A stretch of DNA of 48,407 nucleotides. Origin: Parafrankia sp. EUN1f. GTDB lineage: Bacteria > Actinomycetota > Actinomycetes > Frankiales > Frankiaceae. The stretch lies in assembly GCF_000177675.1 (NCBI RefSeq), contig NZ_ADGX01000061.1, forward strand, positions 1 through 48,407, in the 5' to 3' direction. The notes beneath the pieces were generated by a model, which was given only the letters and a program-made list of their open reading frames with translations, was not told the DNA's origin and ran no database searches. Positions within the stretch are counted from its first letter, which is position 1, and every line of letters starts with the position of its first letter. A program made the position numbers and the translations under genes. Of this stretch, positions 17,220 to 46,388 are shown piece by piece.

Positions 17220-18329
17220 TCAGAGCGCGCCGACGAGCGGGGCGCCGAGCCGGGCGGCGCCGTCGTCCACCCGCAGCTCGTCGACGACGAAACGGCCGTG
17301 GTCGAGGATCTGCCGCCCGTCGAGCCACACGCTGCACCGGCGCACCGGGACGTCCGAGTGCGCGAGGGTGAACCGGCTGCCGCCGGCCTCGTTGTTGGGG
17401 CCGGTGGAGAACAGCACGTTGCCGGCGAAGCAGCGGCCGTCCATGCCCTGGGTGGCGGAGCGGTCGAGCAGCGCCAGCGCGTTCCAGCGGGCCTTCTCGT
17501 TGAGACCCCACCCGATGTGGGACATCGCGAAGCCCTCGGGGTCGCCCCAGCTCTCCAGGTAGTCCCGGTACAGCTCGGCGTCCGCCCCGGGGCCCTCGAT
17601 GGAGCGGATGAACCCGTCGACGACGTCGATCGTGATCGGCGCGTTCACGTAGGTCTTGAACGGGAAGATGATGTCACCACTGTTGATCACCCAGCGGCCG
17701 TTGGCGCTGCCCTCGTTCGGGTAGGACGCCGCGAGACCGGCGCTGAGGTGCGCGTGGGTGCCGGGGCCGTTGGTGAACCCCCAGCCACCGCCGGCGCCGA
17801 ACTGGCCGAGGCCCATGGTGATGTCGGTGCCGGCGTCGGAGGTGATCCGGATCTCGCTGGCCCCGCTGAGCATGGCCACACTGGCCTGCACCCGCCGGCG
17901 CAGGTCGTCCGTCGGGAACAGTCGCTCCAGGATCTCCGGCGGCTCGGTGATCATGAGCATCCGGGTGCCGGCGGCGAGGATCTCCTCCTGCTCCGCCGAA
18001 TGCAGCAGGATGGACAGGTCGACCACCATGTCGGCCGACTTGAGCGCCTCGACCACCGGGCGCAGGCCGGTCAGGCCGGTCAGGCCGTACACCTCGCCGA
18101 CCCCGGGGACCGTGGCGGCCGCGCGGGTGATCGACGGCAGCATGACGGTGAAGACCCGGGCACCCAGCGACGCGGCCGCGGCCGCGGTGGTCTCCAGGTA
18201 CAGCGGCGGCGACTGGGCGTTGCCGAGCACGGCCACCGTCTCGCCGGGCCGCACGTCGCAGCCTTCCAGCGCGCGGCGGAACAGGGTTGTGAGGGTGCCG
18301 CCGTCGGCGGCCTGGTTGGGAACGAGCAC
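17220..18329 (-). CDS. nicX: NicX-like 2,5-dihydroxypyridine 5,6-dioxygenase (M29-like fold)
   Basis: About 369 residues, like the NicX group, which cleaves 2,5-dihydroxypyridine to N-formylmaleamate with Fe(II) and is related in sequence to M29 aminopeptidases. As I recall, the iron ligands proposed for Pseudomonas NicX are His265, His318 and Asp320. Here His271 (AMSHIGWGLN), His324 and Asp326 (LAHSDVPVRR) have exactly the same spacing (53 and 2). The N-terminus (LVPNQAADGGTLTTLFRRAL.GCDVRPGETVAVL) fits. GTG 18329 has AGAGG six bases upstream, whereas the open frame starts at 18461 in unsupported sequence. The symbol rests on motif and context; an aminopeptidase-T-like enzyme is the alternative. 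Confidence 0.75.
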   Translation of the reverse strand: MLVPNQAADGGTLTTLFRRALEGCDVRPGETVAVLGNAQSPPLYLETTAAAAASLGARVFTVMLPSITRAAATVPGVGEVYGLTGLTGLRPVVEALKSADMVVDLSILLHSAEQEEILAAGTRMLMITEPPEILERLFPTDDLRRRVQASVAMLSGASEIRITSDAGTDITMGLGQFGAGGGWGFTNGPGTHAHLSAGLAASYPNEGSANGRWVINSGDIIFPFKTYVNAPITIDVVDGFIRSIEGPGADAELYRDYLESWGDPEGFAMSHIGWGLNEKARWNALALLDRSATQGMDGRCFAGNVLFSTGPNNEAGGSRFTLAHSDVPVRRCSVWLDGRQILDHGRFVVDELRVDDGAARLGAPLVGAL

Positions 18330-18855
18330 GATGCACCTCTCACCGGTGTGGCTTGCCGCTGTGCCGCGATGCCGCGGCCCTTCCGTTCCCCCCGGGGCGC
18401 CGGTCCCGGGAGACAGCCGTCGGGCCGGGATGAGCCCACGAGCCGCCGCGCGCCGAGGCACGGCCCGAATTCGTGAAGCCCCGCCGGCCGGGCGCCCGGC
18501 CGGCGGTTTTCATGCTCCGTGCACGATGTTTCGGGGTTTTGTCCCGCCTGTCTCGGAACCATGAAATCGTGTTCCAAAAAGCTCCGGAGATATACCGTGG
18601 CGCGACGGCTCGGGCGATCGACGCCGACTGATCCTTTTCCGTCGTCGACTCCGACCTGTAACATCCCGGGCGGCACACGGGGAGATGGAAAAGGGTCACT
18701 GGAGTCGGCGCGACCGGTCACGCTGACAACAAGTATGTCGCGCCGGATCGTGGCCCGCTCGACACCAGGTCCTGCGCCGGATCAGCGGCGGATCAGCACC
18801 TGGTCACGCCCGGAGAATTTGCCCGTCGAAAGGAACGGAAGCAAAGGTCGGGAAA
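18330..18855. other. 526-base gap, promoter region of the NicX-like operon
   Basis: No convincing gene lies here. It contains a strong hairpin (18481-18510) and a GGAAC-N11-GTTCC dyad at 18555-18575 that could be an operator. The leftward operon promoter is expected in this gap, but no clear -35/-10 pair was identified. Confidence 0.5.
18481..18510 (+). terminator. 26-base perfect palindrome followed by TTTT
   Basis: Positions 18481-18506 are fully self-complementary and all G/C, followed by TTTT on the plus strand. This looks like an intrinsic terminator for a rightward transcript, yet no rightward gene precedes it. It could stop antisense transcription, attenuate the leader of the leftward operon, or end a small RNA. 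Confidence 0.5.
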
Positions 18856-36550: not shown

Positions 36551-37056
36551 CCCACCCGCTCTCCTTGGGTGCGACCGGACGCGTCCTCCCTGAAGGTCCT
36601 CGCCAACAGGAAACCCATCCCGAAGCCCTGGACAGGAATCACGGGAATCAGCAGCCATGGTGTGACGCCGAGGGCCGCGACATGAAGTGCCGCACAGGCC
36701 AGGGCGTAACCCAGGAACACAGGAGAGCGCAGCATCCGGCGTAACACCTGGCCCGCGGTCGGTTCCGCGACCACCGAAACCACGGCCCCGTCCTGGCGGG
36801 CCGAAGGGTCGCTGCGGCTCCCGACCATCAGTCGTTTTCGCGAAACAGGAGCATGAATTCCTCCTCCGAGGCTTCCGAAGAAATCCACAGGGTACCAACG
36901 AAGGTCCGCCCAAAGGAATCTCTCCGAGCATGTAGTCTCGCCGTCGCCGCACCATGCCTCCGCGTCCTCCGGACACCAATACTCGCACCGGGCGTACTCG
37001 CCGCAGGTGCAGCGCCCCAGCCGACCGTCGTCGTCGATTGCGGGAATCAGATCCAT
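36511..37056 (-). CDS. Hypothetical Cys-rich membrane protein
   Basis: I do not recognise this protein of 181 residues. The N-terminal part is acidic and rich in Cys and Trp (RCTCGEYARCEYWCPEDAEA, then WCGDGETTC), suggesting a small metal-binding or disulfide-bonded module. The C-terminal part has a long hydrophobic region (SPVFLGYALACAALHVAALG, TPWLLIPVIPVQGFGMGFLLA) that could form two membrane helices, then a polar tail. ATG 37056 has GGAGG six bases upstream, a good start. It is convergent with the MBL gene and downstream of the WD40 gene on the same strand. The two halves could in principle be separate proteins, since GTG and ATG codons occur between them. Confidence 0.55.
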   Translation of the reverse strand: MDLIPAIDDDGRLGRCTCGEYARCEYWCPEDAEAWCGDGETTCSERFLWADLRWYPVDFFGSLGGGIHAPVSRKRLMVGSRSDPSARQDGAVVSVVAEPTAGQVLRRMLRSPVFLGYALACAALHVAALGVTPWLLIPVIPVQGFGMGFLLARTFREDASGRTQGERVGQDGWAGSATKCR

Positions 37057-37192
37057 CCAGAGCCTCCGGCCGCATTGCCTGGCCACCCTCGATGGTGGAG
37101 ACGACACACGATACAGCCAGCAGAAACCCGCGCAGTGGTAGATATCAGGCCCACGCACCCCCGGCAAGACCACCGACGGGAGCGGCCCAGGT

Positions 37193-38194
37193 TCAGCTGT
37201 TTCCGACGTGATAGAGGGTCGTCGTGCCGTTCGAGTCACCGCCCGCCAGCAGCCGGCCGTCTGGAGAGAATGCCAGGGACCACACCTCGGCGCGGCTTCT
37301 GGACAGCTCTTCTGGTTTCTGTGGCACAGCGGGATCGCTGACATCCCAGAGCAGAATTTTCGATCCGTCGGTGCTGGCCACCAGCCGCCCGTCAGCGGTG
37401 ACCGCCATCGCGAGGACCTCACGACGGTGCGGGAGTGTCGAAAGCCTGACTGGTGCGGTCACATCAGCCCCAAGATCCCACAGCGTCACACCTTCGAAGC
37501 CGGCGGCATACAACAGCGACCCGTCGACTGAGAAGCTGACCGAGCCGATCATCGACTCGCAGTCCGCGCATGCCAGCCGACGCGGGCTCGTCACATCCCT
37601 GACGTCCCACAGGCGCACCGTCCTGTCGGTGCAACCCGTCGCAAGCATCGAGCCATCCGGGGAGAATGCTGCCGCCAGCACCGGCTGTTGGTGCGCGGGG
37701 AGAACCGAGACCCGGGACGGAGCGGCCGCGTCGTCGACAGCCCAGATAGTCACCGCCCGATCACCCACAGCCGAAAACCGCGACCGGTAACCGCTTGTTG
37801 TTGCCAGGAACCGACCGTCGGGGGCGAAAGCAACCGCGTCGACGGTCATTCGCTGGTTATCCAGGGCTGCCAGCTGAATGGGTGCCTCCGGAGCGGCGAT
37901 ACCCCAGAGCGTTGTTCTCCGGTCGGAACCGCCTGCCGCCAGCAGCTCACCGTCGGGCGAGCAGGTTACGGCGTGTACTCGACCGCGATGCGTGACGGCG
38001 GCGACCAGTACCGGTACGGCGGGATCCGCGACATCCCACAACCTTGCCTTCCGGTCGACGCTACCGGTCACCAGGTGGCGACCGTTCGGCGTGAACACCA
38101 TCTGGCCGATTCCCATGAATCCCGGACCCATGTTCGGCACGAACCGAAGCACGCGATGCCCGTCCCGGAAGGCTGACACCCTCGTGCCCCGCAT
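37193..38194 (-). CDS. Stand-alone WD40 beta-propeller protein
   Basis: Scaffold protein of 333 residues made almost only of WD40 blades. Repeats read MVFTPNGRHLVTGSVDRKARLWDV, AVTCSPDGELLAAGGSDRRTTLWGI, AVAFAPDGRFLATTS..RAVTIWAV, AAFSPDGSMLATGCTDRTVRLWDV, SVSFSVDGSLLYAAGFEGVTLWDL, AVTADGRLVASTDGSKILLWDV and LAFSPDGRLLAGGDSNGTTTLYHV, seven in all, enough for one closed propeller. Linkers of the type DPAVPVLVAAV recur. In actinomycetes such blades usually follow a STAND ATPase or kinase; here ATG 38194, with a GGAGG site, gives a free propeller. No partner domain is encoded upstream. Confidence 0.88.
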   Translation of the reverse strand: MRGTRVSAFRDGHRVLRFVPNMGPGFMGIGQMVFTPNGRHLVTGSVDRKARLWDVADPAVPVLVAAVTHRGRVHAVTCSPDGELLAAGGSDRRTTLWGIAAPEAPIQLAALDNQRMTVDAVAFAPDGRFLATTSGYRSRFSAVGDRAVTIWAVDDAAAPSRVSVLPAHQQPVLAAAFSPDGSMLATGCTDRTVRLWDVRDVTSPRRLACADCESMIGSVSFSVDGSLLYAAGFEGVTLWDLGADVTAPVRLSTLPHRREVLAMAVTADGRLVASTDGSKILLWDVSDPAVPQKPEELSRSRAEVWSLAFSPDGRLLAGGDSNGTTTLYHVGNS

Positions 38195-38544
38195 GCACCC
38201 GTCCCTCCCCACGCCGCTCCGGCCGGCGGGCACGGATCCGCCGGATGAACGGCTCCGCGACGGGCCGCCGCGGAGGACTCCGCAGCCTCGGCCCGCATCC
38301 TCTGACGCCGGTCGATCGGCCGACAACCCCTCGCAGGCACGTCCCATCCGCCCCGCCGGCGAGCGCCGCTGCGGCGCCACCGCCAGATGTCGGTGAATGC
38401 CCACCGCCGCACCCCTGCCCACCTGGGATGATTGCCCGATGGAGGCCGCCGGGGGTCGCCTGGGCGACAGCTCCTGCCAATCACCGGGGCATTGCAAGGC
38501 GAGCAGAAGCGTCTACGATCAACCATTGTCGTGTGGAGGACCGA
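38195..38544. other. 350-base divergent gap between WD40 and NfeD-like genes
   Basis: No gene is supported. It holds a likely promoter for the NfeD/flotillin pair (38492-38519) and a GGAGG site for the WD40 gene at its left end. Confidence 0.4.
38492..38519 (+). promoter_or_regulatory. Sigma-70-type promoter for the NfeD/flotillin operon
   Basis: TTGCAA, a 16-base spacer and TACGAT (TAnnnT form) lie about 25 bases upstream of the NfeD-like ATG, a good match to the actinobacterial housekeeping consensus. Confidence 0.45.
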
Positions 38545-38754
38545 ATGGCCGACCAGGCCGTGATCGGCAAGGCAGGACGGGTGACCGGAAAAATCGCTCC
38601 AGGCATGGTCGGCGAGATAATGATCACCGTTCGTGGCGGCTCCGAGGCTTTCCACGCCTACGCCGACGACCCGGAGACGACAATTCCCGTCGGATGCCGG
38701 GTTCTCGTTGTCGAATATTTTCCCCCACGCACGGTGACAGTTGTCCGAATGTAG
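38545..38754 (+). CDS. Small NfeD-like OB-fold protein
   Basis: A 69-residue protein starting at ATG 38545 after GGAGG. The sequence (VIGKAGRVTGKIAPGMVGEI, then GSEAFHAYADD, then IPVGCRVLVVEYFPPRTVTV) matches the C-terminal OB-fold of NfeD proteins, which act with flotillin/stomatin partners in membrane organisation. Unlike full NfeD it lacks any transmembrane helix, so it would be cytosolic and tethered only through the flotillin encoded 78 bases downstream. The open frame upstream of this start has no coding character. This is a likely partner gene of the next one. Confidence 0.75.
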   Translation: MADQAVIGKAGRVTGKIAPGMVGEIMITVRGGSEAFHAYADDPETTIPVGCRVLVVEYFPPRTVTVVRM

Positions 38755-38832
38755 CGCAAGCACCACCGGCCCGATCGGCCGCAGCCCCAGGACCTCAGAC
38801 CCACAGGTTCTCCTGTGCACGACGGAGGCATC

Positions 38833-40386
38833 GTGACGCTCATAACCATCATCATTGTGGTCGCGGTCGGACTGGTGCTGGGGGTGCTGCTCTTCAAACT
38901 GATGTGGCGGGTCGCCGAGCCGAACGAGGCACTGATTATCTCCGGCCTGCGGGCGCAGAAGGGCGCGGACGACGCTGTGGCCGAAAGCCTCGGCTTCAAG
39001 ATTGTCACCGGCAAGGGTGTGCTGGTTCCGCCCGGCGTCCAGACCGTGCGCCGGATGTCGCTCGATCTGCGGGCCGCCCAGCTCGGCATCGACTGCGTCA
39101 CCCAGCAGGGTATTCCGGTAGGCATTCGCGGCGTGGTCATCTTCAAGGTCGGCGACGACTACGTCTCCATCGCGAACGCGGCCCGCCGCTTCCTCGACCA
39201 GCAGGACAAGATGGATACCCGCGTGCACAACGTCTTCGCCGGCCACCTGCGCGCCATCGTCGGGCAGCTCACCGTCGAGGACCTCATCCGTGACCGGGAG
39301 AAGCTGACCCATCTGACCCGGGCAAGCTCCGGCACCGAGATGGAGAAGCTCGGTCTGATCGTCGACTCGCTGCAGGTCCAGGAAATCGACGATCCCACCG
39401 GATACATCCGTAACCTTGGCCGCCCGCACGTGGCCGCCGTGGCCGCGCAGGCCCGGATCGCCGAGGCCGAGGCCGACCGCGAGGCCACCGAGCAGGAGCA
39501 GATCGCGCTGGCGCTGAAGGCCGAGGCACAGCGCAACAGCTCCATCAAGCAGTCCGGCTTCCAGGCCGAGATCGACGAGGCCACCGCCCGCGCCGCCCAG
39601 GCCGGCCCGCTGGCCGAGGCCGCCGCGCACCAGCAGGTCGTGGTGGAGCAGACAAGGGTCGCCGAGCTGGAAGCCGAGCTGGAGGAGCAGCGGCTGCAGG
39701 CCTCGATCCGCAAGCCTGCCGACGCCCGCGCCTACGAGCAGACCACGCTCGCACGCTCCACCCGTGACGCGCAGATCAGCGCGGCAGAGGCCGCGGCCCG
39801 CGAGGTCGAGCTCGCCGCGGCCGCCGACGCCACCAGGATCCGCACCGACGCGGACGCCCGGGCGACCCAGATCCGGATGCTGGCGACCGCCGAGGCGGAG
39901 TCGACCCGCGCGGTCGGTGACGCGAACGCCCATGCCCGCCGGGCTGTCGGCGCGGCGGAAGGCGAGGCGCTGCGGGCCTGGGGCCTGGCTGAGGCCGAAT
40001 CCATCAAGGCCCGCGCGGACGCGCTCGCCACGAACCAGGAAGCCGTCATCGGCCAGCAGCTCGCCGAGCAGTGGCCGGCCATCGTGGAGGCCGCGGCCAA
40101 GCAGTTCAGCGCCATCGACCAGCTGATCGTCCTGAACGGAGCGGCCGGCCTGAGCGAGACCCTGGCCGCCGCGCTCTCCCAGGGCGCGACAGGCCTGCAG
40201 CTGGCCCGCTCCCTGCTGAGCGGCGGGTCGTCGGACGGTAAGCCGTCGGCCGCAGCCACCGCCGACGGCACCGGCACCAGTCCCAGGACCGGCGGGAGCG
40301 ACAGGGCGTCGGTTCCGGCCGTGCGGTCGCCCGATGCCACTGTCGAGCAGAACACGACCGACGGCCCGGATGAGCCCAGCCGGTAG
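38833..40386 (+). CDS. Flotillin-like SPFH-domain membrane protein
   Basis: Membrane scaffold of about 517 residues. One N-terminal helix (TLITIIIVVAVGLVLGVLLF) is followed by the SPFH/PHB domain (EPNEALIISGLRAQKG, GKGVLVPPGVQTVRRMSLDL, FLDQQDKM.TRVHNVFAGHLRAIVGQLTVEDLIRDRE) to about residue 195. A long Ala/Glu/Arg-rich coiled coil with EAE-type repeats runs to about 400, then a flotillin-type C-terminus (AALSQGATGLQLARSLL) and a disordered Ser/Thr tail. GTG 38833 has GGAGG four bases upstream; GTG 38815 in the same frame is possible. Flotillins organise membrane microdomains; the NfeD-like gene upstream is the usual partner. Confidence 0.9.
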   Translation: MTLITIIIVVAVGLVLGVLLFKLMWRVAEPNEALIISGLRAQKGADDAVAESLGFKIVTGKGVLVPPGVQTVRRMSLDLRAAQLGIDCVTQQGIPVGIRGVVIFKVGDDYVSIANAARRFLDQQDKMDTRVHNVFAGHLRAIVGQLTVEDLIRDREKLTHLTRASSGTEMEKLGLIVDSLQVQEIDDPTGYIRNLGRPHVAAVAAQARIAEAEADREATEQEQIALALKAEAQRNSSIKQSGFQAEIDEATARAAQAGPLAEAAAHQQVVVEQTRVAELEAELEEQRLQASIRKPADARAYEQTTLARSTRDAQISAAEAAAREVELAAAADATRIRTDADARATQIRMLATAEAESTRAVGDANAHARRAVGAAEGEALRAWGLAEAESIKARADALATNQEAVIGQQLAEQWPAIVEAAAKQFSAIDQLIVLNGAAGLSETLAAALSQGATGLQLARSLLSGGSSDGKPSAAATADGTGTSPRTGGSDRASVPAVRSPDATVEQNTTDGPDEPSR

Positions 40387-40734: not shown

Positions 40735-41139
40735 TCACCCGCGTTGGGCGACGAGATGGCAGCAGCGGGCGATCTGCCGATAGGGGTCACGGATACCCGC
40801 CAGCCATTCGGCCAGCATGATCTCCGCGGGATTCGGCACCCGTATCTCCTCGGTGATGTGGTCCGTGAAGATGCCGACCCCGTGCCAGCCAAGAACCGGC
40901 GCTCCCGCCGACGTCAGGAACGCCGAGACGGCCTGCAGCGAATGCGCCTCGCCGAGCTGGTACTGACCGTCCACCGGCGCCGTGCCGTGGAGCTGGTCGA
41001 TGGTGTCGCGCCATCGGCCCTGCAGGCCGCTTCGCATCGCCACGGCATCCGGGTTCACCGTGAGGATCGAGAGGAGTGCGCCGGGCCGGGCCAGCCTGAC
41101 GAGCTCTGCCAGGAGACGGTCAGGCTGGCTCAGGTACAT
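40735..41139 (-). pseudogene. C-terminal half of a class I SAM methyltransferase (remnant)
   Basis: The 134 residues match only the distal part of SmtA/CmoM-like methyltransferases: VMYLSQPDRLLAELVRLARPGALLSILTVN is the post-motif II/III region, followed by SLQAVSAFLTSAGAPVLGWHGVGIFTDHI and RDPYRQIARCCHLVAQR. The glycine-rich SAM-binding half is absent: in frame, family-like coding begins only a few codons before the ATG (CVMYL) and a TGA lies 12 codons further up. It overlaps the preceding truncated gene by 20 bases in another frame. A deletion that fused two genes out of frame explains this. A functional short protein is unlikely, since it could not bind SAM. Confidence 0.7.
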
Positions 41140-41452
41140 GACGCAGCGAATGGGACATCGTGTCCCGCTCGAAGGTCAGGACGACAATACGACCCGTGAC
41201 CTCGGACGGATCGGGCAGGGCCGAGGCCAGCCGCTCCACGAACCCGTCGTCGTGGAGCGGCGCCATCCAGACACGGCTCACGCAGATCCGGCGAACCTCC
41301 AGGGCCGCGTAGACCCAGGCGGCAGCCTCATGGCTGTCACTCGTGTAAAGAACCAGAACCTGGTCGGTCGCCTCCACGTGCACATAGGAGTCCAGCAGGT
41401 TGTTGACGCCGGACCAGACCAGATCGTCGATGACCGAGGCTGCCACTGCCAC
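41120..41452 (-). CDS. Short protein of unknown type, probable truncated gene after the precursor
   Basis: The 110 residues start at GTG 41452 (or GTG 41446), five bases after the stop of the repeat peptide, so the two are almost certainly co-transcribed. The sequence looks genuinely coding: NNLLDSYVHVEATDQVLVLY, TSDSHEAAAWVYAALEVRRI, FVERLASALPDPSEVTGRIVV. It weakly recalls the N-terminal domain of M29 aminopeptidase-T-like proteins, a guess only. Such proteins are about three times longer. The last residues read through into the 5' edge of the methyltransferase remnant in a different frame, as expected if a deletion removed its 3' part. Confidence 0.5.
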   Translation of the reverse strand: MAVAASVIDDLVWSGVNNLLDSYVHVEATDQVLVLYTSDSHEAAAWVYAALEVRRICVSRVWMAPLHDDGFVERLASALPDPSEVTGRIVVLTFERDTMSHSLRHVPEPA

Positions 41453-41457
41453 TGCTG

Positions 41458-41796
41458 CTACTGCTCGACGACGCTGTCGACGACGGGCTGCACAGCCACC
41501 TCGGTGGGCTGGACGGCTATCTCGTTGATGGAGCTGGAGGACGTGCTGTAGCTGATGCTCCAGGCGGTGTTGTTCGCCTGGGACCGCAGGACGTCCGTGC
41601 CCGCTATCTCCGCGGCCGAGGTGCTGTAGCTGATCGACCAGGCCGAGTCACCGCCGATCTTGTTCAGGGTCGCGGCGTGCTCGCTGAAATCGGAGACCCG
41701 CAGTGCCTCCCGCTCGTTGACCTGGGCCTCCTGGGCGAACTCCTCGGTGACTTTGGTGACGATGCTCTCGATCTGGGCGCGCGAGATCTCGGCCAT
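41458..41796 (-). CDS. Candidate RiPP precursor peptide with two AWSISYSTS core repeats
   Basis: A 112-residue protein of no family I can name. Residues 1-45 form a charged, helix-prone leader-like segment (EISRAQIESIVTKVTEEFAQ) ending in KIGG. The C-terminal part has two repeats 26 residues apart, DSAWSISYSTSAA and NTAWSISYSTSSS, rich in Ser/Thr with one Trp and one Tyr each and no Cys, then a Val/Gln/Glu-rich tail. Leader plus repeated core is typical of ribosomally made, modified peptides. ATG 41796 has GGAGAGG upstream; the frame is open to 41889 but that part has no coding look. Neighbours downstream are two truncated genes; no synthetase, radical-SAM or YcaO enzyme is in the window. Confidence 0.65.
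   Translation of the reverse strand: MAEISRAQIESIVTKVTEEFAQEAQVNEREALRVSDFSEHAATLNKIGGDSAWSISYSTSAAEIAGTDVLRSQANNTAWSISYSTSSSSINEIAVQPTEVAVQPVVDSVVEQ
41539..41643 (-). repeat. Twin 27-base core repeats in the precursor gene
   Basis: The segments 41617-41643 and 41539-41565 both encode AWSISYSTS. They differ at a few bases, mainly TCG versus AGC/TCC serine codons, so the peptide is conserved beyond the DNA. The period is 78 bases. Confidence 0.85.
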
Positions 41797-41907
41797 GAGG
41801 GCCTCTCCATCCTGAACGGACCGCAGAGCGCGACGAAACACGATGCGGTAAAGGAAAAGGAAATTCGGCATGATGACATGACGAACCAACTACACGACAG
41901 AACGACT

Positions 41908-43031: not shown

Positions 43032-44387
43032 GTGCGCGCGAGACTGGGGGCTGGGTTCGGCTGGCTGTGGTCGGCCTACGCTGTGAGCACCTACGGCACG
43101 TGGATCGCCTTCGGGGCGTTCCCGCTCCTCGCGGTCCGCGTGCTGCACTCGCCGGCCTTCGCCGTCTCGCTCCTGGGCGCGGCCAGCCTCGCCGTCGCCG
43201 CCGGCGTGGCGATTCCGCTGGGTCCGTGGGTCGAGCGCCGGAACAAGCGCTCCGTGATGATCGCAATGGATCTGGTTCGCTTCCTCGCCATGGCGAGCGT
43301 TCCGGCCGCCTACCTTTTCGACCTGTTGTCCTATGGCCAGCTGCTGGCCGTCTCGGTCATCTCCGCGACGGCGGGTATCGCCTTCACCGCCGCCTCCGGC
43401 GCGTACCTGAAACACCTCGTCAGCCCGGAGCATCTCCTCGTCGCGAACGGGAGGTTCGAGGGCACGAGCTGGATGGCGACCGCGGCCGGCCCGCCGCTCG
43501 GCGGCGCACTCATCGGGCTCCTCGGCCCGGTCATCACCGTCGCCGCCGACGCCGTCAGCTATCTGCTCTCCGCATTCGGAATCCTCCGCATCCGCGGCGG
43601 CGACGTCGCAGCGCCCCGACCCGCGCCACCCCGCACCCCAGCACCGCGCACCGCAGCGCCCGGCACCACAGCACCGCGCACCGCACCACCCCGCGAGGCG
43701 GCCGCCGGCTCACGTGGCCTCGACATTCTGAGTGGCTGGCGGTTCATCTTCCGCGACCACGCGCTTCGACGTCTGTTCCTGAACGCGATGACCGTCAACG
43801 GTCTGATCATGGCAACCAGCCCGCTCCTCACCGTCCTTCTTCTGGACGAATACCACCTGCCCGCCTGGCAGTACGGCCTCGCGTTCGGCCTCCCGGCCCT
43901 CGGCGGCCTCGCCGGTGCCCGTAGCTGCGCACTACTGGTAACCCGTTACGGGCAGTACCGCGTCCTGATGGTCTCCGGCTGGCTGCGCTCGACCTTTCCA
44001 CTCGGGCTCGCCCTGACCCGCCCGGGCGTCGCCGGACTCCTCATCGTGATCACCACCGAGGCCCTGCTGATCATCTGTATGGGCGTCTTCAACCCGATTA
44101 GCGCCACAGAACGCCTGCGGCGTGCGCCCGCCGACCACACCGCACAGGTCCTCAGCGCATGGAGCATCAGCAGCAGAATCGCCCAGGCGTCCCTCATGGC
44201 GATCTGGGGAGGCCTCGCGACGCTCACCAGCCCGCTCACCGCCATCACCGCCGCCGGTGTCCTTCTCCTCGCCACCCCGCTTTTTCTGCCCCGACGGACG
44301 CACCTGCCCGATCCGGTGCTCGATGCACCGGCCGAAAGCGGCCGCGTCAAATCGACTGACGCCGGAAAGGCCATATCGGTAAAGTGA
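43032..44387 (+). CDS. MFS efflux transporter (macrolide/EntS-like type)
   Basis: Membrane transporter of 451 residues with the MFS_3-like pattern. It opens with FGWLWSAYAVSTYGTWIAFGAFPLLAVRVLHSPAFAVSLLGAASLA. The cytoplasmic loop is GPWVERRNKRSVMIAMDLVRF, and ASGAYLKHLVSPEHLLVANGRFEGTSWMATAAGPPLGGALIGLLG is typical of drug/siderophore exporters. The central loop is a Pro/Ala/Thr-rich low-complexity linker (TPAPRTAAPGTTAPRTAPPR). GTG 43032 has GAAGGAG upstream. Divergent transcription from the LysR gene suggests an inducible efflux unit. It might also export the nearby peptide, but nothing ties the two together except distance. Confidence 0.88.
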   Translation: MRARLGAGFGWLWSAYAVSTYGTWIAFGAFPLLAVRVLHSPAFAVSLLGAASLAVAAGVAIPLGPWVERRNKRSVMIAMDLVRFLAMASVPAAYLFDLLSYGQLLAVSVISATAGIAFTAASGAYLKHLVSPEHLLVANGRFEGTSWMATAAGPPLGGALIGLLGPVITVAADAVSYLLSAFGILRIRGGDVAAPRPAPPRTPAPRTAAPGTTAPRTAPPREAAAGSRGLDILSGWRFIFRDHALRRLFLNAMTVNGLIMATSPLLTVLLLDEYHLPAWQYGLAFGLPALGGLAGARSCALLVTRYGQYRVLMVSGWLRSTFPLGLALTRPGVAGLLIVITTEALLIICMGVFNPISATERLRRAPADHTAQVLSAWSISSRIAQASLMAIWGGLATLTSPLTAITAAGVLLLATPLFLPRRTHLPDPVLDAPAESGRVKSTDAGKAISVK

Positions 44388-44494: not shown

Positions 44495-45475
44495 TCACAC
44501 GGCGAGGCTCATCCGGTATTTCGACCAGTCGCCGGCCAGCACCGCCCGGTAGCGGGGCGGATTGTTCTCACTGGTGCACGACGGAATGCACTCGATCAGC
44601 GCGTCGAAGTTCGGGTGCTGGAAATACGGGATGGACATGCGTGGCTGGTGCGCGGTCTCGGCCGGCGGGTTCACCACCCGGTGTTCGGTCGCGACCCAGC
44701 GGTCGTTCGTCCACTTCGCCAGCATGTCCCCCAGGTTGATCACGTACGAGCCGGGCACCGGTGGGACGTCGCACCACCGGCCGGTGCGGTCGAAGACCTG
44801 CAGGCCGCCGATTCCGTCCTGGTAGAGGATGGTGAGGCTGCCGATGTCGGTGTGCGCACCACGGCGCATCCGGCCTTCCTCCGGTGGTTCGGGCTGGGCC
44901 GGGTAGAAGTTCGCGTTCAGATACGAGGTGTGCCGGTCGAACTTGTCGTCGAACCAGTCGGCCGGCAGGTCGAGGGCCTCGGCGAACGCGGCCATCAGCC
45001 GGGCCGACAGCCCCTCCATCACCGCGTAGTACTCGCGCCAGACCGGGCGGAAGGCCGACGGTTGCGCGGGCCAGATGTTGCCCTCGAAGTCCTCCGACCA
45101 TTCGGGACCGTACCCCGCCGCGGCGACATCCGCCGCGTCGTCGAACCGGCCGTTCTCGAAGCCCTCGACGACGGACTCCTGGCCGAAGGCCTCGACCGAG
45201 CCGTACCCGCGGTACAGGTTCCCGCGCGCGGAGGCGGACCGCAGCTTGTGCTCCAGCGGCAGCTCGAAGAACTCCCGGTTGACCTCGTACATCCGGTCGA
45301 CGAGCTCGCTCGGCACACCGTGGCCGGTGATCACGATGAAGCCGACGCGCTCGCAGGCCGCCCCGATCGCGGCGACGATCGACGGGCGGAGCTCGGGGTC
45401 GGTGAGCCCCGCGATGTCGATGACCGGAACCCCGGTCTCCTCGCCCTCGGTCGTGACCGGAACCGGACCGCTCAT
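44495..45475 (-). CDS. Isopenicillin-N-synthase-like 2OG/Fe(II) oxygenase
   Basis: Oxygenase of 326 residues with the DIOX_N domain (VPVIDIAGLTDPELRPSIVAAI, ERVGFIVITGHGVP) and the double-stranded beta-helix core. Iron ligands are His208 and Asp210 (GAHTDIGSLTILYQD) and His265 (ATEHRVVNP); the 2-oxoglutarate-binding RxS is Arg279-Met-Ser281. Length and motifs match plant-type dioxygenases and IPNS relatives found in many actinomycetes. ATG 45475 has GGAGG seven bases upstream; the frame is open to 45622 in low-quality sequence. The substrate is unknown. It lies just downstream of the adenine deaminase pseudogene, suggesting a former purine- or nucleoside-related operon, which is speculative. 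Confidence 0.92.
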   Translation of the reverse strand: MSGPVPVTTEGEETGVPVIDIAGLTDPELRPSIVAAIGAACERVGFIVITGHGVPSELVDRMYEVNREFFELPLEHKLRSASARGNLYRGYGSVEAFGQESVVEGFENGRFDDAADVAAAGYGPEWSEDFEGNIWPAQPSAFRPVWREYYAVMEGLSARLMAAFAEALDLPADWFDDKFDRHTSYLNANFYPAQPEPPEEGRMRRGAHTDIGSLTILYQDGIGGLQVFDRTGRWCDVPPVPGSYVINLGDMLAKWTNDRWVATEHRVVNPPAETAHQPRMSIPYFQHPNFDALIECIPSCTSENNPPRYRAVLAGDWSKYRMSLAV

Positions 45476-45634
45476 TTCCTGACCTCCTGCCAGAACGGTT
45501 GTCGATGGATGGGCCTCGGCCGCGGCCCGCGCCGCCCGCCGCGACTCATCCTGCATCTGCAGGCCCAGGCAGGCGTTGGCCAGCACGCGCCGCCAGGGCA
45601 GCAGGACGTCCCGCTGCGGCATGTAGGCGAAGTG

Positions 45635-46388
45635 TCATGCGCTCGCCCCGGCGGAGACGAGCAGGGACGGCACGATCGTTCCGGTGTCGCCGTCGACGAC
45701 GCCGATATCGGTCAGGTGCGGCCCGGGAATGCACGGCAGGGTCGCGGCCAGGACGTGGAAGAGCGGTTGCTGGGTCAGTGGCGCCGTCGGCATGCCGATC
45801 TCGATGGCGGCCTGCTGGGTGGCACGCTGCTGCTCGGCGACCTCGGCGGCCGGGCGGTCGCTGAGAATGCCGGCGATCGGCAGCGGAACCTCGGCGATCA
45901 CCGCACCGGCGCGCGCCACCGCGATCCCGCCGCCGTGGGCGACGACCGCCTGGGCCGCGCGCAGCATCTCGGCCGGGTCGCGGCCGAACACGACCAGGTT
46001 GTGGGTGTCGTGCGACAGGGTCGTGGCGACCGCGCCCGTCCAGTCACCCCAGCCGGAGAGCAGCGCCGCCTGCGGGGCGTGCGGCGCGCGCCCGTGCCGG
46101 TGGACGACCACCTGCAGCAGGCAGCCCGCCGGGATCTCGGCGACCCCGCCGGAGATCAGGACGTCGGCCTCGGCCCAGCGGCTCGCCACCGGACTGTCGA
46201 GGACCATCAGGCGGGTGACGCCGTCGGGCCGGGCCGACGATGCCGACATCCGCGGGGCGCAGGCGGCCGGTCGCGACGTCGATGACCGTCCCGCCGGTCA
46301 GCAGCAGGTCGAACGGCTCCAGGCCCTGGGCGGCCCGAACCGCGCGCCGCCGTACGGCCGGCGCCACCGGCTCGATGTGAGTCGTCAC
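45635..46388 (-). pseudogene. ade: Adenine deaminase pseudogene (catalytic domain deleted, frame shifted)
   Basis: Two parts of an adenine deaminase are present in different frames. The first, from GTG 46388, gives the N-terminal APAVRRRAVRAAQGLEPFDLLLTGGTVIDVATGRLRPADVGIVG. The second, from about 46249 to 45635, is the C-terminal adenine-deaminase domain (RPDGVTRLMVLDS, GAVATTLSHDTHNLVVFG, GGGIAVARAGAVIAEVPLPIAGILSD, LTDIGVVDGDTGTIVPSLL). The central amidohydrolase barrel with its metal-binding His residues, some 300 residues, is missing, and the join lies near 46240-46260 with a frame change. It cannot be an active deaminase. The C-terminal part alone could still be translated from ATG 46249. 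Confidence 0.75.

Follow-up and report, generated by a model that had tools for sequence, protein, structure and literature searches.

The window, that is, the whole 48,407-nucleotide stretch of DNA that was analysed, carries on its minus strand a short ORF, P0001, that reads as a RiPP-type precursor and starts just behind a probable ribosome-binding site:

41458..41796 (stop included), minus strand: P0001, predicted 112-aa RiPP-type precursor (ORF reading, codon-position GC)
41802..41808, minus strand: GGAGAGG, probable ribosome-binding site 5' of the ATG (read by eye)
41650..41661, minus strand: KIGG directly ahead of core 1 (residues 46–49), possible GG-type cleavage site (translation)
41617..41643, minus strand: core 1, AWSISYSTS (residues 52–60; repeat search)
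41539..41565, minus strand: core 2, AWSISYSTS (residues 78–86; repeat search)

The ORF boundaries agree with those of a first-pass annotation of the letters, which left the strand unstated. It had also described AWSISYSTS as occurring twice, 26 residues apart, after KIGG, and we recovered both copies at that spacing. The longest repeated string in P0001 is 9 residues, while the longest in any of 5,000 shuffled versions of the protein was 7. At the DNA level the two cores differ at 5 of 27 nucleotides, and all five differences, including a TCG/AGC serine switch, are synonymous; among 200,000 variants of core 1 with five random substitutions, 34 kept the peptide. The earlier reading of the serine codons as a mark of selection on the peptide therefore holds. 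The GC content of P0001 at codon positions 1, 2 and 3 is 0.56, 0.46 and 0.94. Comparison of P0001 with Pfam and NCBIfam at E values up to 1 gave no match, a search of 97 relatives returned only P0001 itself, searches of the genome contig collection and of plasmids gave no homologue, and the core strings had no match in the open-access literature. Taken with the gene sets described below, P0001 is very probably a RiPP precursor consisting of a leader and two identical W-x-I cores.

Broken genes 3' of the precursor

Two incomplete genes follow P0001, the first of them encoding part of an M29-fold protein hereafter called X:

41120..41452, minus strand: truncated X, the N-terminal ~100 aa of an M29-fold protein that has ~370–390 aa when complete (homologue comparison)
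40735..41139, minus strand: truncated class I methyltransferase (CmoM-like), residues ~121–254 only (NF008264 profile 124–254 of 261)
40987..41046, minus strand: methyltransferase stretch left as a ~60-bp scar at the corresponding site of a sister genome, G004 (DNA comparison)

The X fragment starts 5–11 nt past the P0001 stop and is 41–51% identical to fuller X proteins, matching residues ~6–100 of ~380 only; the putative metal ligands start at residue 196, so the metal-ligand region is absent. The methyltransferase remnant is out of frame with X, lacks the SAM-binding half and is 42–43% identical to the methyltransferases of two X loci in other genomes (L036 and L040). Neither remnant matched Pfam at E values up to 1, and NCBIfam recognised the methyltransferase only. 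In a methyltransferase tree built with 16 of 19 generic loci (L005, L021 and L022 absent), the window fragment was not firmly placed with the cluster type versus other relatives. Within the same genome, the single match for X and the single match for the window methyltransferase were the truncated genes themselves, and the PhyH protein of L036 had no match at E 0.001 in a search run without a positive control. The assembly is a draft of 396 contigs (99.13% complete, 4.86% contamination), and an unassembled X copy is possible.

Profile scanning of nine ORFs around P0001 (37193–46506) recognised the methyltransferase, LysR, MFS, 2OG oxygenase, flotillin, adenine deaminase and WD40 genes and left X and a 99-aa ORF unmatched. 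Neither a radical SAM maturase nor a lanthionine synthetase was among these nine neighbours. The 2OG-Fe(II) oxygenase (44495–45622) belongs to another Pfam family than PhyH. We left the MFS gene (43083–44387) out of the set; its product is 26–33% identical to those of MFS genes in X loci. The adenine deaminase gene (45635–46388, minus strand) looks internally deleted: its C-terminal domain (204 aa, PF13382, NCBIfam profile 441–578 of 588) is joined out of frame to an N-terminal piece that was identified by eye and has no NCBIfam match.

The flanks of the locus are 94–98% identical in G004, where the site between them holds other ORFs. There the 60-bp methyltransferase piece adjoins the end of the flotillin gene and scores 76.8 bits; the highest score among 30 shuffles was 30.7. 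From this scar we infer that the gene set is probably older than the split of the two genomes and is now being lost; the corresponding sites of two further genomes (G002 and G003) gave only noise by tblastx. Also absent from G004 (locus L069) is the counterpart of window 36638–38958, where the WD40 gene lies and the flotillin gene begins, suggesting repeated loss or gain of DNA in this neighbourhood. Since the enzyme genes beside it are broken, P0001 would seem to be what is left of a natural-product pathway in decay.

X loci and their precursors in other genomes

A search with the X fragment returned no match but itself from 296 genomes of the class, and from 35 genomes of the order itself plus one weak match with two stops (E 0.0085). 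A joined query of P0001 and X retrieved fuller X homologues from two families, in 5 of 249 genomes of the one and 3 of 250 of the other, counts that likely overlap with the later loci and are not additive. An X profile had no match in 251 genomes of the family of G037, and in 396 genomes of the phylum it returned the window X itself and one protein of G1110, which we rejected as X and read as an ordinary M29 protein with no precursor. When six aligned X proteins were used to search the species genome collection, 27 X loci emerged, in Kitasatospora, Streptomyces, Sphaerisporangium, Catellatospora, Micromonospora, Actinoallomurus, Actinokineospora, Amycolatopsis, Actinomadura, Nocardia, Myxococcus and Pseudoalteromonas. 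L035 has a second X, and one more lies in L060 (G047), which brings the number of X places to 29.

Directly upstream of X, 26 of the 29 places have a short ORF, accepted by eye, that carries W-x-[ILV] close to its C-terminus, the exceptions being the second X of L035, L059 and L060. The bare W-x-[ILV] pattern was found at 28 of the 29, two of them spurious, versus 87 of 1160 positions drawn at random from these loci. C-terminal cores of the upstream ORFs are exemplified by IAWSISYTTFRS and VSWSISYSTASSPV, and the small ORFs just 5' of several fuller X genes end in VAWKVSYSTFYNN, VAWRISYSTFYNS, IAWSISYTTFRS, MAWFVAT or similar strings. L036 has two precursor genes in tandem; the L051 precursor, like P0001, has GG ahead of its core, and a C39-peptidase ABC transporter is encoded upstream of it. 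Two cores within one gene occur only in P0001 and in none of the other accepted precursors; its W-S-I cores are internal rather than C-terminal, and it is longer than the other X-linked precursors. Against an HMM of 25 precursors (L054 and L056 omitted as near copies of L053), whole P0001 scored 12.7 bits, where 500 shuffles reached 8.0 at most, and this score stems from the core. The leader scored no better than chance sequence, as 464 of 500 shuffled leaders equalled or exceeded it. With its leader unrecognised by the family profile, the membership of P0001 in the X-associated set rests on its core and its position.

Three of the X places deserve separate description. The second X of L035 (786–1913, minus strand, Sphaerisporangium) has ERAGMAHF instead of ERDTMSHF and no credible precursor, and recalls the CgnB/CgnE duplication of the crocagin pathway. 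In L060, a candidate precursor picked by eye (1060–1284) has M at the usual Trp place (EAMYIAYGTRLKP), and the X behind it is 38% identical. L059 comes from a record titled Nocardia alni that the tree tool puts in Frankiaceae; a methyltransferase and an HExxH piece lie near its X, upstream of which there is no clear precursor. Our own gene calls skipped this X and any precursor there, as well as the methyltransferase genes of L033 and L059.

The enzymes encoded near X were inventoried from our own gene calls with clustering, profile scans of representatives and tblastn, so that all counts are lower bounds. PhyH genes were found in L033–L036 and L040, and L051 combines a cupin and a PhyH gene with its C39-peptidase transporter. 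JmjC genes lie in L043–L047 and L057, and genes for an alpha-ketoglutarate HExxH hydroxylase (TIGR04267) in L041–L047 and L057, with a partial match in L059. Closely related P450 genes occur in L037–L039, L041 and L042; the P450 genes of L034 and L050 are distant. Relatives of the window methyltransferase were present in 4 of the 27 loci (L036 and L040, and by tblastn L033 and L059), M16 peptidases in 5 (L033–L036 and L048), and YcaO with a SagB-like protein in L055. Radical SAM genes were recognised in 5 of 27: a radical SAM/SPASM gene in L049, a distant one 6 kb away in L051 (tblastn), and B12 radical SAM genes (TIGR03975) with DUF5825, a domain mentioned in PMC12026744 and PMC12257519, in L053, L054 and L056. 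The tailoring enzymes thus vary from locus to locus while X is constant.

These inventories bear directly on the first-pass annotation. Its call of a RiPP precursor gains support from the like cores that lie beside X and RiPP tailoring enzymes in other genomes, and of the maturases it suggested looking for near homologues, radical SAM, YcaO and methyltransferase genes are there, along with PhyH, P450, JmjC and HExxH hydroxylase genes. That the enzyme genes next to P0001 are broken had escaped it. It had stated that homologues without the repeated core, or homologues from a known structural or secreted protein family with no modification enzymes nearby, would refute the idea; the homologues do carry a single core each, yet modification enzymes do lie near them. 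The two chemistries it proposed found no support as the common one. Radical-SAM cyclophane peptides share the W-x-x pattern of the core, but the constant partner here is the M29-fold protein, and radical SAM genes were recognised in the loci listed above and in none of the scanned neighbours of P0001. Ser/Thr dehydration fared likewise, since no lanthionine synthetase was seen either beside P0001 or among the scanned part of the neighbours of the X loci.

Nature of X and the fate of the pathway

Profile comparison linked X weakly to a known family: the L027 protein matched Pfam Peptidase_M29 (PF02073) at E 2.2e-5, under the gathering score, and the L036 protein had no match at E 0.01. An AlphaFold model of the L036 X (mean pLDDT 90.4) matched the NicX dioxygenase with Z 24, the M29 aminopeptidases PepS, AmpT and AmpS with Z 19–20, and the crocagin proteins CgnE and CgnB with Z 17.6 and 17.4, pointing to one shared fold of which the window gene would retain only the N-terminal part. 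Putative metal ligands E196, E268, E289, H295, H315 and D317 are invariant in the 27 X proteins; E196 was assigned by eye and the other five from a weak HMMER alignment with CgnB (6zsv; E 0.56 and 0.6). The G1110 M29 protein carries motifs similar to this ligand set, and an E-to-H spacing of 6, at one stage taken as CgnB-specific, was dropped as a marker because that protein has the same spacing. What sets X apart from M29 proteins is its link to RiPP precursors and the further conserved motifs ERDTMSHF, NSHINERR and a C-terminal DCCG, which by eye are absent from one M29 protein. At the X C-terminus, ED and CC pairs (E353, D354, C359 and C360) are invariant in 27 of 27 alignment rows.

Among the open-access papers retrieved, judged by titles and abstracts, the only one with an M29-derived RiPP protein is that on crocagin. 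As described there, CgnB and CgnE are M29-derived peptide-binding proteins, and CgnB, which has a dinuclear Zn site, makes the tetracyclic crocagin core at Tyr-Trp together with CgnE and the dioxygenase CgnC (PMC10070186). We regard CgnB as the nearest characterised RiPP counterpart of X, a likeness of predicted fold and comparable setting and not a subfamily assignment. Both systems have a small precursor with a core Trp and an M29-fold protein with a metal-ligand set, a putative one in X, and several X loci also share with crocagin a dioxygenase and a methyltransferase nearby. Beyond this, P0001 departs from the crocagin precursor in having two internal cores and broken enzyme genes beside it.

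Our preferred reading is that P0001 is the precursor of an X-type gene set, was probably orphaned when its cluster decayed, and is probably not matured. Such a set would comprise the precursor, then X with a putative ligand set comparable to that of CgnB, then oxidative and sometimes methylating enzymes. By analogy with crocagin, X in working clusters would be a core-binding protein that, jointly with an oxygenase, alters the stretch around the conserved Trp. In the window genome the partner genes appear to have been deleted or truncated, leaving P0001 behind; loss of the product there is what we infer from these breaks, and neither modification of the Trp region nor leader processing is possible without an X from elsewhere. 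A living pathway would require just that, with P0001 matured by enzymes encoded elsewhere and the two-core layout serving as a working variant that gives two peptides per precursor. The intact P0001 and its purely synonymous core differences are in keeping with this, as is the description in PMC10885120 of RiPP pathways served by proteases outside the cluster. We nevertheless think it unlikely, given the failure of the own-genome searches to return a second X, a second methyltransferase of the window type or PhyH (the last at E 0.001, no positive control) and the close succession of precursor and X in the 26 accepted cases, which makes action in trans unusual. Less probable still is that P0001 encodes some ordinary small protein, unrelated to RiPPs, whose repeat arose by chance: the lack of a Pfam or NCBIfam match and the unrecognised leader would suit it, but the core resembles those of X-linked precursors and the gene directly precedes the X fragment.

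For the working clusters, two roles of X were weighed, each of them possible rather than probable. The cores might be oxidatively cyclised at Trp, much as in crocagin, by X and an alpha-ketoglutarate dioxygenase or other oxidase. The modelled CgnB/CgnE fold of X, the formation of the crocagin core at Tyr-Trp by CgnB, CgnC and CgnE as reported in PMC10070186, and the PhyH, JmjC or cupin-type dioxygenase genes recognised in 12 of the 27 X loci favour this. Against it, the crocagin core ends in Ile-Tyr-Trp, whereas in X-linked cores Trp precedes x-[ILV] and none of the accepted precursors ends in Tyr-Trp; the clusters that the authors term crocagin-like have two CgnB/CgnE copies (PMC10070186), whereas a second X was found, within the locus DNA examined, in L035 only; and the L036 X is no closer to CgnB and CgnE (12 and 15% identity) than to NicX and the aminopeptidases (13–15%). 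Alternatively, X could be the leader-removing peptidase of several unrelated RiPP types, with W-x-[ILV] as a recognition or stop signal, which would fit its M29 fold, its conserved ligand set and its constancy beside differing tailoring enzymes. Against this, M16 peptidases, encoded in 5 of 27 loci, could be the leader proteases there, and CgnB and CgnE had no aminopeptidase activity according to the crocagin report (PMC10070186). Modification of the Trp region and leader processing are about equally likely in intact sets, and both crocagin-like oxidation at Trp and leader cleavage by X are likelier than cyclophane or lanthionine chemistry. We adopted Trp-region modification as the model that fits best, since the nearest RiPP counterparts, CgnB and CgnE, were not peptidases in their authors' hands.

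On a broader view, X may tentatively define a RiPP class of its own, slightly less probable than its contrary in our estimate, in which a metal-binding core enzyme of the M29 fold would work on W-x-[ILV] peptides across Actinomycetota, Myxococcota and Pseudomonadota in the company of very different tailoring enzymes, and of which P0001 would be a two-core variant caught in decay. We met no description of such gene sets in the open-access literature, and the novelty of the family is uncertain, as precursors that the crocagin authors report near single CgnB/CgnE copies (PMC10070186) may overlap with the X-linked ones. The analysis connects an orphan repeat with RiPP gene sets whose common elements are one M29-fold protein and a W-x-[ILV] core; intact sets in Kitasatospora, Streptomyces, Actinokineospora and Myxococcus make the function of X directly testable. 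The window itself is of smaller value: it adds a record of one such cluster being lost, along with the scar that the sister genome keeps. Elsewhere in the window, distant from P0001, a 413-aa ORF (17220–18461, minus strand) resembles the M29/NicX fold by eye.
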